DNA from: Thermoplasmata archaeon
Lineage (GTDB): Archaea > Thermoplasmatota > Thermoplasmata > Methanomassiliicoccales > Methanomethylophilaceae
Assembly: GCA_015063185.1 (NCBI GenBank)
Contig: SUSY01000016.1
Location: 1-34,328, forward strand
Direction: 5' to 3'
DNA length: 34,328 bases
The position numbers and the translations under genes are program-made. The notes beneath the pieces were generated by a model. The model saw nothing but the letters and a program-made list of their open reading frames with translations. It had not been told where the DNA came from and did no database searches. The first letter of the stretch is position 1; every line of letters begins with the position of its first letter. Of this stretch, positions 3,121-22,659 are shown one piece after another.

Positions 3121-4482
3121 TCAAAGGACTGGATGATATGAATGACCGAATATGACCTCTGGCCCGATAAGGCGAACCGAGGGATCATTCAGATCAAGGA
3201 GATCATCGTCGAAACCACTGATGGAGAACAGAAGGTAACGCGGGTTTGAGGCCTTACTGAAACGTTCTGCCCTATCCCTAAGAAGATTGTAGTCCCTCAT
3301 ACCGAACAGTGATTTTCTGAACTTGCATTCACAGAACAGGTCGAAACGAACATTGTCGACGGATACCTTCGCCACAATGTCGATCTCTGAATGCACATCG
3401 TCTCTATCCATCCACCAAGTACCCATATCCAAGGTAAGATACCATTCACGTATCGAATCGGAACAAAATGATTCAAATTGTTTACCTAGGAACGTGTTGA
3501 TATACGGTTCTATGAGATGATAGGATTCATCCACATGATTTTCATCAAAATATGCAACGATCTTTGGCATCAGGGAGAAATGGAATGCAAAGAATGCGTC
3601 CGAAATGTAATACACTGCCCTTTTAGGTGCATCGAACATCGGATTCAATTTGGATATGATACCGACATCCATCAATTGATACAGGCACTTGGAACAGATC
3701 GTATCATCGATCCCGACCTTCTGCGAGATCTCCCTGAGTGATGTGGATCCGCCCCCTATCGCATGAAGGATCGAGATCACCCTCAGAGGATTGGAAAATT
3801 CGGATTCGATAAGACGTTCTGCCTCGTCCGTCATCCAATCATTATTAAAATAGTTCTCCTTGATACAGCCCTCGAAGGTATCCGATACCATTTCCGAATG
3901 GTATTTCGGTATACCGCCCATTATCAGATACAACTTCAACGCATCAAGATCGGACATGTCTGGGTGAAAACACCTGATCTCCGAGAAAGATAACGGTTGT
4001 AAGGACATCGTCCTTCTGAAACGACCGAATAAAGGCCTTGTGGAATCCTCCCCCTCCTTCTTCATTGTGGAGATGGACGAACCGCAAAGGACCAACATGG
4101 ACCCGGAACGTTTCAATGGCCCATCGATGAAATGTTGAAGGAGTGATGAAACCAAGGGGGATGCGATATATGGATACTCATCGATCACGATGATGTATCT
4201 GTCAGATAGGCACACACTTTCCAACGAATCGATGAATTCCAAATAGGATGACAGTACAGTGTCACCGATTTCCTTTGAAAGGAAGTTGGAAAAATAAGAT
4301 AGATTTACCGATTCCCCACCCTTCAAACATCTAAAGAACAAAGACTTCTTCCCTTCACAGAATTTTTCCAATAAGGTAGTCTTCCCAACACGTCTACGAC
4401 CATACATCAGAACCGCGGAACCGCCTATGTGATACACATTCTCCAATTCGGAAAGTTCTTTGATTCTACCGATGAAGGTCAT
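3121..4482 (-). CDS. DUF234-type AAA ATPase with intact motifs
   Basis: This 453-residue paralogue of the downstream gene has complete motifs. Walker A is GRRRVGKTT (residues 28-36), Walker B is IIVIDEYPY (97-105), and CGSSIS (133-138) follows at the sensor position. A winged-helix-like segment covers roughly 225-295. The C-terminal DUF234 domain has D368 and E385-C-K387, matching a PD-(D/E)xK nuclease-like core. The start ATG sits about 22-28 nt below a TATA box at 4503-4510, so the transcript may be leaderless. Two identical inverted repeats (4520-4568) lie just upstream of the TATA box and may be an operator. The family is common in archaea and often found in variable regions; its substrate is not known. 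Confidence 0.85.
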   Translation of the reverse strand: MTFIGRIKELSELENVYHIGGSAVLMYGRRRVGKTTLLEKFCEGKKSLFFRCLKGGESVNLSYFSNFLSKEIGDTVLSSYLEFIDSLESVCLSDRYIIVIDEYPYIASPLVSSLLQHFIDGPLKRSGSMLVLCGSSISTMKKEGEDSTRPLFGRFRRTMSLQPLSFSEIRCFHPDMSDLDALKLYLIMGGIPKYHSEMVSDTFEGCIKENYFNNDWMTDEAERLIESEFSNPLRVISILHAIGGGSTSLREISQKVGIDDTICSKCLYQLMDVGIISKLNPMFDAPKRAVYYISDAFFAFHFSLMPKIVAYFDENHVDESYHLIEPYINTFLGKQFESFCSDSIREWYLTLDMGTWWMDRDDVHSEIDIVAKVSVDNVRFDLFCECKFRKSLFGMRDYNLLRDRAERFSKASNPRYLLFSISGFDDDLLDLNDPSVRLIGPEVIFGHSYHPVL

Positions 4483-14242: not shown

Positions 14243-14278
14243 TTTCATCATATTTCTAACATAAAAATGAATATATGA

Positions 14279-14307
14279 TTGGAACAGGGGACGTACCCCT
14301 GTTCCAA
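14279..14307 (-). terminator. Strong terminator hairpin after lysS
   Basis: TTGGAACAGGGG (14279-14290) and CCCCTGTTCCAA (14296-14307) form a perfect 12-bp stem with a 5-nt loop, six bases past the lysS stop. On the minus strand it is followed by an AT-rich stretch with TTTTTATG. It may also back up termination from top6A. Confidence 0.7.
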
Positions 14308-14312
14308 TCAAT

Positions 14313-16700: not shown

Positions 16701-18008
16701 TTAAAGCCTGTCACTATCCCTGATCTCATAGGGCGAGTTGTACTTCCTCTTATACAGGATCGAAAGGATCGGAGGTGCAATGATGGTCGTAGCGATACAC
16801 ATCATGACGATGATCGCATAGAGTTCAGGCGTAAGGACTGCGACACCATCCACAAGAGTGGTGGTTCCAAGCAGTGCAACGATGATACCTACCTCACCAC
16901 GTGGCATCATTCCGACTCCAATGATGGAAACGGATGACATCTCCATGTGAGGATCTGCGATCTTTGCACCAAATCCACAACCGACGAACTTAGTGATGCA
17001 TGCGAGGATGATAAGAATCAGTACGGTACCGAGAAGAGCTGGATCGTCAAAGAAGACCTCGAGATTCACATTCATTCCGACATAGATGAAGAAGAACGAC
17101 ACGAAGAATGAGGAAATGCTCTCGAACTTCTCCTCGAGCTTCCACTCCCATGCGTGCTCCGCAAAGAGCATACCTGCAAGGAATGCACCGATGATCATCG
17201 CAAGTCCCGCCATGTCCGCAATGTAAGCGAACACAAGACAAGTAGCAATGGCTACGACGAACATGTTGAAACCTGCGGGAATATAGTTGGGATCCGCAAG
17301 GAGTCTGTCGGCCCTCTTCTGTTGAATACTGTCGTAGACCTTGGGAATAATCTTTCCTGCGATTAGCAATACGATGAGGACGAATGCAACAGCAGTGATT
17401 GAAACGATGAGGATGTTGACGATATCGATCTTACCGGTCTTGGCCATTCCACTGACAATCGCAAGGACAATCATTCCGAGGATATCGTCGATAACAGCTG
17501 CTCCAATGATAATCCTAGATTCCTTTGCATCCATGAGCTTCATGTCCTTGATGACACGAGCGGTGATTCCGACACTTGTCGCGACCATCGCTGCTCCCAT
17601 GAAAAGGGACGAATAGAGATCTCCATCAGTAATTGTGATGAACAGATATCCAACGATGAATGGTACGATGACTCCCATGACTGCAACGAGAAGTGCAGCC
17701 TTTCCGACGGAAGTCAGGTCGGTCACCTTGGTCTCCAATCCAACCGTGAAAAGAAGGAATATGACTCCGAGTTCGGAGAATATCTCGACAATCTCCTCTA
17801 CGGTATGGGATGAACTTTCAGAGGGGCTGAACTCAGTGGCGATCCACTCGAACACGTTGTAATCACCAAACGTGATACTGACGAGCAGAATTCCTAAGAT
17901 GATCTCACCAATGAGACCGGGAACACCCAACTTGGCAAAGATGCGTGATGCAATCTTAGCGAGGATGAACACGATAGCAATGGCGAGGATTACCTGCGCG
18001 ATTTCCAT
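16701..18008 (-). CDS. Cation:proton antiporter, CPA2 family (KefB/NapA type)
   Basis: This is an integral membrane exchanger of Na+ or K+ for H+. About 12-13 hydrophobic helices run from MEIAQVILAIAIVFILAKIA to IVMMCIATTIIAPPIL. Family motifs include GLIGEIILGILL near the N-terminus, FLLFTVGLET and the half-way loop GAAVIDDILGMIVLAI with the paired Asp residues of electrogenic NapA-type exchangers. There is no TrkA-N regulatory domain. The ATG at 18008 gives a 435-residue protein that starts directly at the first helix. Longer in-frame translation up to 18158 runs into the group II intron and is not real. A TATA-like TTTAATATTA lies about 25 nt upstream (18028-18038). Confidence 0.9.
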   Translation of the reverse strand: MEIAQVILAIAIVFILAKIASRIFAKLGVPGLIGEIILGILLVSITFGDYNVFEWIATEFSPSESSSHTVEEIVEIFSELGVIFLLFTVGLETKVTDLTSVGKAALLVAVMGVIVPFIVGYLFITITDGDLYSSLFMGAAMVATSVGITARVIKDMKLMDAKESRIIIGAAVIDDILGMIVLAIVSGMAKTGKIDIVNILIVSITAVAFVLIVLLIAGKIIPKVYDSIQQKRADRLLADPNYIPAGFNMFVVAIATCLVFAYIADMAGLAMIIGAFLAGMLFAEHAWEWKLEEKFESISSFFVSFFFIYVGMNVNLEVFFDDPALLGTVLILIILACITKFVGCGFGAKIADPHMEMSSVSIIGVGMMPRGEVGIIVALLGTTTLVDGVAVLTPELYAIIVMMCIATTIIAPPILSILYKRKYNSPYEIRDSDRL

Positions 18009-18065: not shown

Positions 18066-18101
18066 ATCGAGTGGGGCCCGATAGATGATGGACCCATCGA
18101 T
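18066..18101 (-). other. Group II intron domain VI and 3' splice site
   Basis: ATCGA at the 5' side pairs with TCGAT at the 3' end, and the TGGG/CCCA-type inner stem leaves an unpaired base near the candidate branch-point A at 18072, seven bases from the 3' terminus. The intron ends in AT, fitting the AY 3' end. Confidence 0.6.
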
Positions 18102-18112
18102 TGCCACTTCAC

Positions 18113-18145
18113 ACCACCGTGCGTACTTCTCGTATACGACGGCTC
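18113..18145 (-). other. Group II intron domain V
   Basis: This is the catalytic hairpin of the intron. The lower stem pairs CCGT with ACGG, and the following upper stem (CGTAT with GTACG, one base bulged) ends in a purine-rich loop. The 3' flank GGTGGTGTG matches IIC introns. Pairing below CCGT is imperfect in the predicted triad (A opposite G), so activity is uncertain. Confidence 0.65.
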
Positions 18146-18156
18146 GCCAGATTGAC

Positions 18157-18340
18157 ATCTGTGCCCATATATGTCTCGAGTATTGACGGAAAACCTAATG
18201 ATTCCAAATAATGGTTGGACAAGGTTGACTGCAGTGACCTGAAAGCGGACATGTGCCAGTACCCATGAACCCCTTCATGTTTCAAGGTTCCATGTACAAA
18301 CCATCCTTTTGTCAATAACGGAATGGGCCACTTGTGACGG
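18157..18340 (-). pseudogene. C-terminal remnant of a group II intron reverse transcriptase/maturase
   Basis: Translation gives GYWHMSAFRSLQSTLSNHYL followed by ESLGFPSIL, the conserved end of the maturase (thumb/X) region of group II intron proteins. There a GYWR-type motif precedes an alternating Leu/Asn helix and a GLxSL-type end. The catalytic palm with the YADD box and the whole N-terminal part are missing. The fragment ends about 10 nt before domain V, the position expected for an intron ORF in domain IV. Confidence 0.65.
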
Positions 18341-18769
18341 TTCTTAGGCATCTTCTTTAGTGCCACATCTTGGCCCGCAGAGTGTCGTATACTCCGTTCC
18401 AATACCCCTATACGAACCATGGCAGTTTGGATACGGATATCCCATATACGCCTGGCGAGCCTCCGTTAGCAACGACCCTTTAGACAGACTGATCTGGACC
18501 CCCTTATCGAGAATCTTGTCCATCTGGTCGAGCACGTACAACTCGCCCCATATATTTCTCAGAACCGCTGCTCCCGCCCCCTCCCATTCAGGTGGCTTTG
18601 TAATCTTTTCCGTTGGCTTATCATAGTCCCCCCCCCCCTTCAACCCTCGGCGAATAGGGGACTAACGATTCCCTTCAGTAGCCCATAGAGGACTTTCACC
18701 TCCAAGAATCCACAAATTGGTTTGTGGATGGAGTCCAAGGACTCCAACCACGTGTGATGGGCACACAAG

Positions 18770-18791
18770 GATGGCGGATGACTCCGCCATC
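18770..18791 (-). terminator. Terminator stem of the 440-residue gene, used as intron insertion target
   Basis: GATGGCGGA and TCCGCCATC (18770-18778 and 18783-18791) form a perfect 9-bp stem with a 4-nt loop, 13 nt after the stop codon of the upstream minus-strand gene. On the minus strand CTT follows and then the intron. With the intron removed, CTT would join TTCTTTCC to give a normal T-rich tail. Confidence 0.75.
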
Positions 18792-18804: not shown

Positions 18805-20127
18805 TCACTGTGATGCAAGACCAAAACGGAATTTTATGCCAACAGACGTAGTACTGGCCATTCCGGTACCGAATCTGAAGGATATGCAGGCCCCATTACA
18901 GGCAGACAAGGATGTATCCTGTACAGGAACATCCGAAACCATACTCTCTATCGATGGTTGTACATCGACGATTGGACCCTCTTCGACACCATCAGAGACA
19001 GGCTCAACGATGTCGACCGATGCGGACATAATACTCTCCGCAACCTTTGCGGCCTGCACGATGCTGGGGATGATATCCTCCACGATAGGTTCGACCTCTG
19101 CAACCTCGACGACTGGCTCATCGACGGTCTCCGGGATTGTAGAAATGATTTCCGCAACCTTTGCGGCTTGTGCGATACGTGCCACAACGGTCTCGATCGC
19201 ATCCTCGGTCATAGCTTTAACAGCCATCTCGGTAAGTTCCGCATCCACATCCGGTATAGAGGCATCAACGAACACGGGTTCATCGAACTCCTCCATCATG
19301 GGTGTGATAGTCTCGATACAATCCTCCGTAGCTGCACGGATTGCAATCCTGATGAGGTCCGCATCAGTGTACCATGGCGTTTCTGGTACATCTTTGGAGA
19401 TATACTTCTCGCTATACAGTGTGGTCTGCTTCTGAGTAGGGCGCACCTCTGGGAAATCGGGTGCTTTATCGGTGAATGGCTCGTATACTGGATTATCAAT
19501 CTTCATCTGCTCGATCACAGAATCATGACCGATGATAGAAATCACATTACGGATAAGATCGGACTCCCTGACATCGTCGAAGATCTCACCGCTGTCGAAG
19601 ATCCAATCGTCAACGGTACGCATCATGTCCACAACCTCATCCACCAATTCGATGGGTGTTGCGGTCGCAGAAATGTCCGGGAAAAACTCGCCTTCCTGAA
19701 TGGGGACTGCCGGAGTGTCGACAATAATCCCGACAGGTGCCGCAACCTCGACTGTTTCGGCACTGTCCGTAGGCGTAGCAGATACGGGTGACTCGAACTC
19801 TGGAACATGAATCGCAGGTTCGATGACATCGAACTTCTCATCATCCATCTCCTCAAGCTGTTTGACAGCCTTTGATGCCTTGATGATCGTCTCGTCCTGA
19901 GGGATTGCCCTTTTCTGAATCGTCTCATCGAACTTATGACCAAGAATGTTATCGCGCTCAGTAACTATGTCCGATATCAGATCATAATCAGGATTTGTCA
20001 TCCTGCTCAGTCTAAATCTTGCGGATTTTCCAATATCCAGAATCGAACCGAGGAACCTGCGCACCCTTGTAGCGAGACTCGTGCCCCCCATCAACTCTGG
20101 AGCGAACTTCTTTTGCTCAGAGCTCAT
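18805..20127 (-). CDS. Acidic repeat protein of unknown function
   Basis: I do not recognise this 440-residue protein. The first 45 residues are basic (RVRRFLGSI and GKSARFRLSRM); the rest is strongly acidic and rich in Val, Ile, Glu, Asp, Pro and Thr. It has no signal peptide or membrane helix. Imperfect repeats are visible: IAIRAATEDCIETITPMMEE..DEPV (261-285) and MAVKAMTEDAIETVVARIAQ...DEPV (301-338), with AAKVAE recurring at 321 and 359. The C-terminus has two FRFG motifs (ISFRFGTGM and IKFRFGLAS). A GGTATAAAG element near 20161-20169 lies between it and the divergent amidinotransferase-like gene and may serve as TATA box. The long Pro/Thr/Val-rich acidic part suggests an extended or scaffolding protein, but this is only inferred. 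Confidence 0.7.
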   Translation of the reverse strand: MSSEQKKFAPELMGGTSLATRVRRFLGSILDIGKSARFRLSRMTNPDYDLISDIVTERDNILGHKFDETIQKRAIPQDETIIKASKAVKQLEEMDDEKFDVIEPAIHVPEFESPVSATPTDSAETVEVAAPVGIIVDTPAVPIQEGEFFPDISATATPIELVDEVVDMMRTVDDWIFDSGEIFDDVRESDLIRNVISIIGHDSVIEQMKIDNPVYEPFTDKAPDFPEVRPTQKQTTLYSEKYISKDVPETPWYTDADLIRIAIRAATEDCIETITPMMEEFDEPVFVDASIPDVDAELTEMAVKAMTEDAIETVVARIAQAAKVAEIISTIPETVDEPVVEVAEVEPIVEDIIPSIVQAAKVAESIMSASVDIVEPVSDGVEEGPIVDVQPSIESMVSDVPVQDTSLSACNGACISFRFGTGMASTTSVGIKFRFGLASQ

Positions 20128-21472: not shown

Positions 21473-21510
21473 GCCAGTGCCGTTTTCCTGTGGCCATAGG
21501 AAGTGACACA

Positions 21511-22659
21511 ATGAGAATGGCTGTAGGTATGGATCTTCATTCGAAGATGACCACGATGTATGCCGTGTATGCGGATGGTTATGATGTCCCTTCGAGACAT
21601 CAGAAATTCTTGAACGATTTCAACAGGGAATTCTGCGAATTCCCGTCAACACCGAAATGGTTCAAGAAGATGGCAGACTATGTTTCGAAACATGAATGTC
21701 ACGTCCTGGTGGAGAATTCTACAAAGACACACGATGTGTATTGGATGTTGACGAATCTCGGGATCCTTGTGACTGTTGCACAGGCACAGGACCTGTACAG
21801 GATAACCAAATCCGTCAAGAAGACCGATAAGCACGACTGCAGAGAATTGGCGGCATATATGCGCAGGCGTCTGAACGGAGAGGATGAGTTCTCGGTGTGC
21901 TACATGCCCACTCCCGAATGGATGACCAGGAGAGAGGTGTGCAGGGGCCTTTCCCATGAGAAGGACTATCTCGCCGATACCAAGAGAAGGATAAGGGCGT
22001 TCCTTCTGCTGAGAGGTATCACTCTCAAGCGTGAGTATTCCGATATAACCTGTGACAGGGCGTTGAAGGAACTGTCGCAGATCGACGATCCGTATCTGAT
22101 GATGCAGATAAGGTTCGCTCAGGACTGCAGGAAGAGGGTGGATTTCTTCGAGAGAGTGGTACTGAACATGTTCCATGATCTGGAGATGTATCAGCTGATA
22201 AATTCGATACCGGGCTTCGGCGTCCTGTCATCGGCGTATTTCACATCGTTGATCATAGATATCGACAGATTCCCGGATTCCAAGAAGTTCACATCATCAT
22301 TCGGTGTGGTGCCGAAGATAAGGTCATCCTCCGATTCCAATCCCAACTGTTCGACCACACACAGGGGGGACGATCTTGCCAGATATCTGCTGATGTTCTG
22401 TGTTCTGGGCCATGTGAAGCATCAGAAGGATTCCGTCGTCACCAGGATGTACCGGAGACTGGTCGAAAGAGGGAAACCGAAGAGGGAGGCGATGGTGGCC
22501 GTGGGAAGGAAACTGTTGACGGTCGTCTATTCCGTACTGAAGAACCGCAGACCGTACGTCTCCGATCCTGAGACTTTGTTATTGTCACACGAGGACGAGG
22601 AATCCGAGAGGGAGGATTTCGGCCTGAAGGATGTGTCGGAGGAGAAATTGATCGACTGA
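21511..22659 (+). CDS. IS110-family DEDD transposase
   Basis: The protein catalyses excision and insertion of the element. The N-terminal RuvC-like DEDD domain shows Asp8 (VGMDLHSK), Glu68 (VLVENSTK), Asp106 and Asp109 (KKTDKHDCREL). The C-terminal Transposase_20 domain shows NSIPGFGVLSSAYFTSLI (a helix-hairpin-helix-like segment), FTSSFGVVPKIRSSS with candidate catalytic Ser residues, and RRLVERGKPKREAMVAVGRK. The ATG at 21511 gives 382 residues and follows AGGAAGTGA; a GTG at 21490 would add seven. The reading frame is complete, so the element may be active. Confidence 0.92.
   Translation: MRMAVGMDLHSKMTTMYAVYADGYDVPSRHQKFLNDFNREFCEFPSTPKWFKKMADYVSKHECHVLVENSTKTHDVYWMLTNLGILVTVAQAQDLYRITKSVKKTDKHDCRELAAYMRRRLNGEDEFSVCYMPTPEWMTRREVCRGLSHEKDYLADTKRRIRAFLLLRGITLKREYSDITCDRALKELSQIDDPYLMMQIRFAQDCRKRVDFFERVVLNMFHDLEMYQLINSIPGFGVLSSAYFTSLIIDIDRFPDSKKFTSSFGVVPKIRSSSDSNPNCSTTHRGDDLARYLLMFCVLGHVKHQKDSVVTRMYRRLVERGKPKREAMVAVGRKLLTVVYSVLKNRRPYVSDPETLLLSHEDEESEREDFGLKDVSEEKLID

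Follow-up and report, generated by a model that had tools for sequence, protein, structure and literature searches.

ORF-less group II introns keep a complete ribozyme. Such introns of bacteria and archaea were reportedly the subject of work by Simon and co-workers in 2008.

In bacteria, the majority of group II intron copies have been truncated or inactivated; IIC introns target terminator motifs, and ORF-less introns usually coexist with related IEPs (PMC4424553). The usual domain V (DV) triads are AGC and CGC (PMC12350094; PMC4424553). Published archaeal IEPs are of the types bacterial-C, D, CL1A and CL1B; those of class C fall into groups of their own. Of the Thermoplasmatota genomes surveyed, 15% contained group II introns (PMC8919778). 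Our literature search found no relevant intron work on Methanomassiliicoccales.

The locus described here lies in a 34,328-nucleotide stretch of DNA (the window) from a methanogenic Methanomethylophilaceae archaeon. Judged from its sequence, a 701-bp element in the window is the broken remains of a mobile self-splicing group IIC intron in this archaeal host. Very probably, it is a degenerate, internally deleted relic of a full-length class C/IIC intron that retrotransposed 3 nt past a hairpin.

An intron copy behind a terminator-like stem

The element lies on the minus strand, where it begins with GTGTGCCC at 18766 and ends with CCACTCGAT at 18066. It therefore has the GUGYG 5' end and AY 3' end of group IIC introns (GTGTGCCC...CTCGAT), with hairpins resembling DV and domain VI (DVI) at its 3' end (Table 1). 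Three nucleotides upstream is an intrinsic-terminator-like stem of 9 bp without mismatch. It belongs to a set of just three perfect stems of at least 9 bp in the 34-kb window, versus none or one in each of five Markov-shuffled windows. Excision of the element in silico joins ...CATCCTT to TTCTTTCC.

No Rfam group II model matched the region of the element, either at the gathering threshold or at E <= 10, a result that could be read to mean that the element is not an intron. That reading is ruled out by a family-specific DV-DVI covariance model, built without the window copy, which matched it with 46.8 bits (E = 3e-9). Moreover, a full-length group II intron elsewhere in the genome can be aligned with the element right up to both termini of the latter (E = 1e-39, 1e-32 and 5e-23). 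An earlier, sequence-only reading had proposed group IIC ends and ancestry, a position 3 nt past a perfect 9-bp terminator stem, and DV and DVI hairpins at the 3' end. The first two proposals are upheld by these results, and the hairpins are indeed present, though degenerate, with the family model positive and Rfam negative.

Table 1. Coordinates of the intron copy, its parts and its insertion target in the window
Feature	Position	Strand	Details
Degenerate group IIC intron copy, whole	18066..18766	-	701 nt; ends and blocks align with full-length G000:C6:1280-3233 and four relatives
Perfect 9-bp hairpin, terminator-like stem	18770..18791	-	Insertion target; GATGGCGGA-gtca-TCCGCCATC
End of 5' exon	18767-18769	-	CTT, between stem and element
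Retained 5' end of domain I	18660..18766	-	Intron nt 1-107; 82% identity to full-length copy
Deletion junction 1	18660..18664	-	TAGTC microhomology; ~336 nt missing (most of domains I-III, including EBS1)
Domain III end/domain IV start and IEP N-terminus remnant	18384..18652	-	Several frameshifts; run of 11 G
Deletion junction 2	18373..18380	-	CTGCGGGC direct repeat; ~903 nt missing (reverse transcriptase core)
IEP C-terminus remnant	18112..18372	-	~82 codons; 54% identity; frameshifted relative to the 5' part
Degenerate DV	18112..18145	-	Triad CGC to CGU (U at 18139); A.C mismatch beside bulge (18135/18121)
Degenerate DVI	18066..18110	-	GAGAGG to GAAGTGG; CCTACTCGAT to CCCACTCGAT; A bulged in intact copies now paired

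Upstream of the element is a gene at 18805-20127, followed by the hairpin, and downstream is a Na+/H+ antiporter gene whose ATG is at 18008. A 485-aa version of the antiporter ORF, with a start codon within the intron, results from mechanical extension of the frame; the start codon at 18008 is the conserved one, and a congener has it too. This congener (G001) carries the same two genes, with a hairpin after the first and without the intron, and thus provides the empty site that the sequence-only reading had suggested seeking. Its sequence has diverged around the insertion point, such that the join is not readable base by base; as one genome per species was compared, this empty site belongs to another species of the genus, not to the same species. 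Just upstream of the antiporter start, and after the element, comes a TATA-like TTTAATATT. Because the element sits between the hairpin of the upstream gene and this TATA-like sequence, the signals of both neighbours are probably intact, and the present effect of the element is probably nil.

Several other features of the window were observed. The 18805-20127 gene (minus strand) encodes a 440-aa protein without a Pfam match (E <= 1); it has repetitive Ala/Val/Glu-rich stretches, and its C-terminal end is conserved beside the antiporter in G001. At 21490-22659 (plus strand), 2.7 kb from the relic, is another mobile element, an IS110-type transposase (PF02371, 2.9e-12; PF01548). The longest perfect stem in the window is a 15-bp hairpin at 14276-14310, between two genes.

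Intact relatives and their guide loop

A genome search of the kind suggested by the sequence-only reading found one full-length IIC relative in the host genome (G000:C6:1280-3233). This copy is 1954 nt long and encodes an intact class C reverse transcriptase (RT) that is open over 479 aa, matches TIGR04416 with 398 bits, and has GsI-IIC RT as its best solved-structure match. Other long copies occur in G004 and G146, as well as in G141 (cut at a contig end) and G048 (RT partly gapped). In a quick tree of IEPs, six archaeal sequences group together (SH-aLRT 97) next to Bacillota introns; the introns of the host are members of this archaeal class C clade. All seven archaeal copies examined sit 1 to 7 nt after a hairpin. 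The DV-DVI model matched in 16 of 102 genomes of the archaeal family; several of these matches are 3' fragments, which indicates that relics are common there too. In the sequence-only reading, an archaeal IIC copy that lost its ORF yet may still splice had been called unusual, as IIC introns are mainly bacterial. The host is archaeal and does carry IIC introns, but this is less unusual than was claimed, because class C archaeal IEPs and Thermoplasmatota introns have been published (PMC8919778) and the family has its own resident clade.

Some structural peculiarities of these introns were also noted. The apical part of DV in the archaeal IIC family (L009:3154-3187 and relatives) is 1 to 2 nt shorter than the bacterial one (UAC-GAGAA-GUA versus UACC-GAAC-GGUA), and a related copy in G026 has the bacterial form. 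The intact C6 copy is itself located within DVI of a different-class group II intron that has decayed (L009:1218-1290 and 3233-3245), such that the DVI hairpin of the outer intron serves as its stem target. This nesting was recognized from a DV/DVI remnant upstream and from the 3' exon ATTCGACT, which continues the pattern of the DVI region at L164 (CCTTATTCGACT). L163 and L164 are strong RF00029 matches (G000:C7:7980-8054 and G000:C9:50333-50407) with equal scores of 64.4 bits and lie near contig ends; they show that the host genome also harbors another group II intron family, one of canonical type.

The intact copies share a loop of the form CTGGC-NNNNN-ACAG, whose central pentamer pairs with the five bases at the 3' end of the intron's own 5' exon. 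In the five intact archaeal copies, the exon/loop pairs are TTCTT/AAGAA, TTTTT/AAGAA, TCATT/AATGA, TAAAC/GTTTA and ATACC/GGTAA. The true assignment pairs 24 of 25 positions and is equalled in only two of 120 permutations, the second of which exchanges two loops of the same sequence. The same holds for eight bacterial copies, for which none of 20,000 shuffles reached the observed pairing total. Loops and exons were taken from the sequence, and the pairing register was our choice. We take this covarying pentamer loop to be EBS1, which would pair with IBS1.

Deletion and decay of the window copy

Relative to the full-length C6 copy, the window copy consists of three co-linear blocks with 70-82% identity: its positions 1-107, 115-383 and 387-701 correspond to nucleotides 1-109, 446-735 and 1639-1954. 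Exactly two large gaps separate these blocks, and both lie at short direct repeats (Table 1). The window copy is short because of these two deletions, which took the domain I-III core, EBS1 included, as well as the RT core. RF02001 and RF01998 match all five full-length archaeal copies, and in the C6 copy these matches (intron nt 122-297 and 336-426) fall wholly inside the first gap. Neither model was found at E <= 10 in the region of the window copy, where the domain I-III core of functional IIC introns is missing. The EBS1 loop (approximately intron nt 219-223) also falls within the first deletion, which would leave the window copy without a guide for its own exon.

The retained 3' domains are eroded. 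The DV triad is CGC without exception in 16 intact rows, whereas the window copy has CGU, a departure from the functional triad, and its J5/6 and DVI bases have also changed relative to the intact rows. Its DV-DVI region folds with -26.9 kcal/mol (z -1.2), compared with -41.5 kcal/mol (z -5.95) for the C6 copy, and its DV-DVI model score compares with about 77 bits for intact close relatives.

The coding region fares no better. The remnant of the IEP N-terminus is interrupted by frameshifts and the RT core is deleted, so the window copy has no complete class C IEP, and a 103-aa remnant ORF gave nothing convincing in Pfam and NCBIfam. The loss of the ORF, as proposed in the sequence-only reading, is thereby confirmed. 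The C-terminal remnant remains open, with dN/dS of approximately 0.25-0.39 against intact copies at near-saturated dS; its dN to intact copies is 0.25-0.44, versus 0.13 between the G000 and G004 copies, again with dS close to saturation. Given that this fragment is still open, function may have been lost rather recently, a suggestion weakened by the near-saturation of dS.

Could the element nevertheless be a functional compact intron without an ORF, self-splicing or using the IEP of the full-length copy in trans? Its ends and its DV-like and DVI-like hairpins would suit such an intron, as would the related intact IEP encoded in the same genome, given that ORF-less introns elsewhere usually stand beside related IEPs (PMC4424553). 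However, functional ORF-less introns retain domains I-III, and the window copy has lost these too: the entire Rfam-recognized core of the intact copies is absent, as is EBS1, the catalytic triad is mutated, and DV-DVI is eroded. We therefore regard this explanation as very unlikely, and the earlier suggestion of a compact intron that may still splice does not hold in view of the deleted core and EBS1, the mutated triad and the frameshifted IEP fragments. On sequence grounds, the window copy is almost certainly unable to splice or to move.

It is likewise very doubtful that the element is a non-autonomous, MITE-like short form that was already deleted when the machinery of the full-length copy inserted it. 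Although such an origin would fit the exact termini of the element at both ends and its canonical target site, only one copy of this form exists in G000 and none was found in 120 relatives. Moreover, loss of EBS1 means loss of target recognition, and the family's other weak DV matches, which are 3' fragments or lie at contig ends, do not have the two-deletion form.

We give almost no credence to a rearranged or circularly permuted intron whose core lies nearby, or to an assembly error. Circularly permuted group II introns are described in bacteria (PMC8637638), and the genome is a 52-contig draft, but the 34-kb window contains no other group II match and no significant match to the missing segments. 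A collapse or chimera is also unlikely given the 70-82% identity to the full-length relative, and the window copy carries frameshifts of its own. Next to no weight is given to a split system, in which the RNA and IEP of the full-length copy would provide the missing domain I-III core in trans for cleavage or splicing of the short RNA.

For the degenerate relic that we favor, the following history can be proposed. A full-length class C/IIC intron would have arrived by retrotransposition upstream of the antiporter, 3 nt beyond the hairpin at the end of the 18805-20127 gene. It would then have decayed in place, with replication slippage between short direct repeats deleting the domain I-III core with EBS1, as well as the RT core, and with point mutations degrading DV, DVI and what remained of the IEP.

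Comparison with known group II introns

The relic itself matters little. The resident archaeal family is modestly useful, as it offers intact class C introns, sited behind hairpins, whose guide loops have been identified. That these archaeal copies lie behind hairpins, including DVI of another intron, is consistent with introns that recognize the stem in the DNA as such and not functioning terminators.

The closest relatives of the window copy, G000:C6:1280-3233 and the congener copy G004:C23 (L072:1934-3888), share with it the ends, block order, hairpin-adjacent insertion, and overlap of the IEP C-terminus with DV. However, they keep the domain I-III core, EBS1, an intact 479-aa RT and the CGC triad, all four of which the window copy has lost. 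Bacillota IIC/class C introns, for example that of [Clostridium] asparagiforme (L082), with IEP relatives of solved structure (GsI-IIC RT 6ar1, 7uim), have in common with the archaeal introns the 5' GTGYGCCC, 3' CCTACTCGAT, DV CGC triad, insertion after terminator stems, a 4-5 nt EBS1 loop, and a class C IEP. The IEPs of the two groups are approximately 45% identical, and the window copy, unlike the Bacillota introns, is a relic. Group II introns already published from archaea resemble those of the present host in their archaeal setting and class C IEP, and ORF-less pieces have been reported among them (PMC8919778). The window copy resembles ORF-less bacterial and archaeal introns in that it has no functional IEP and a related IEP is encoded in its genome; unlike them, it has lost most of domains I-III. 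It fits the truncated category and is an ordinary relic, a piece of genomic debris.
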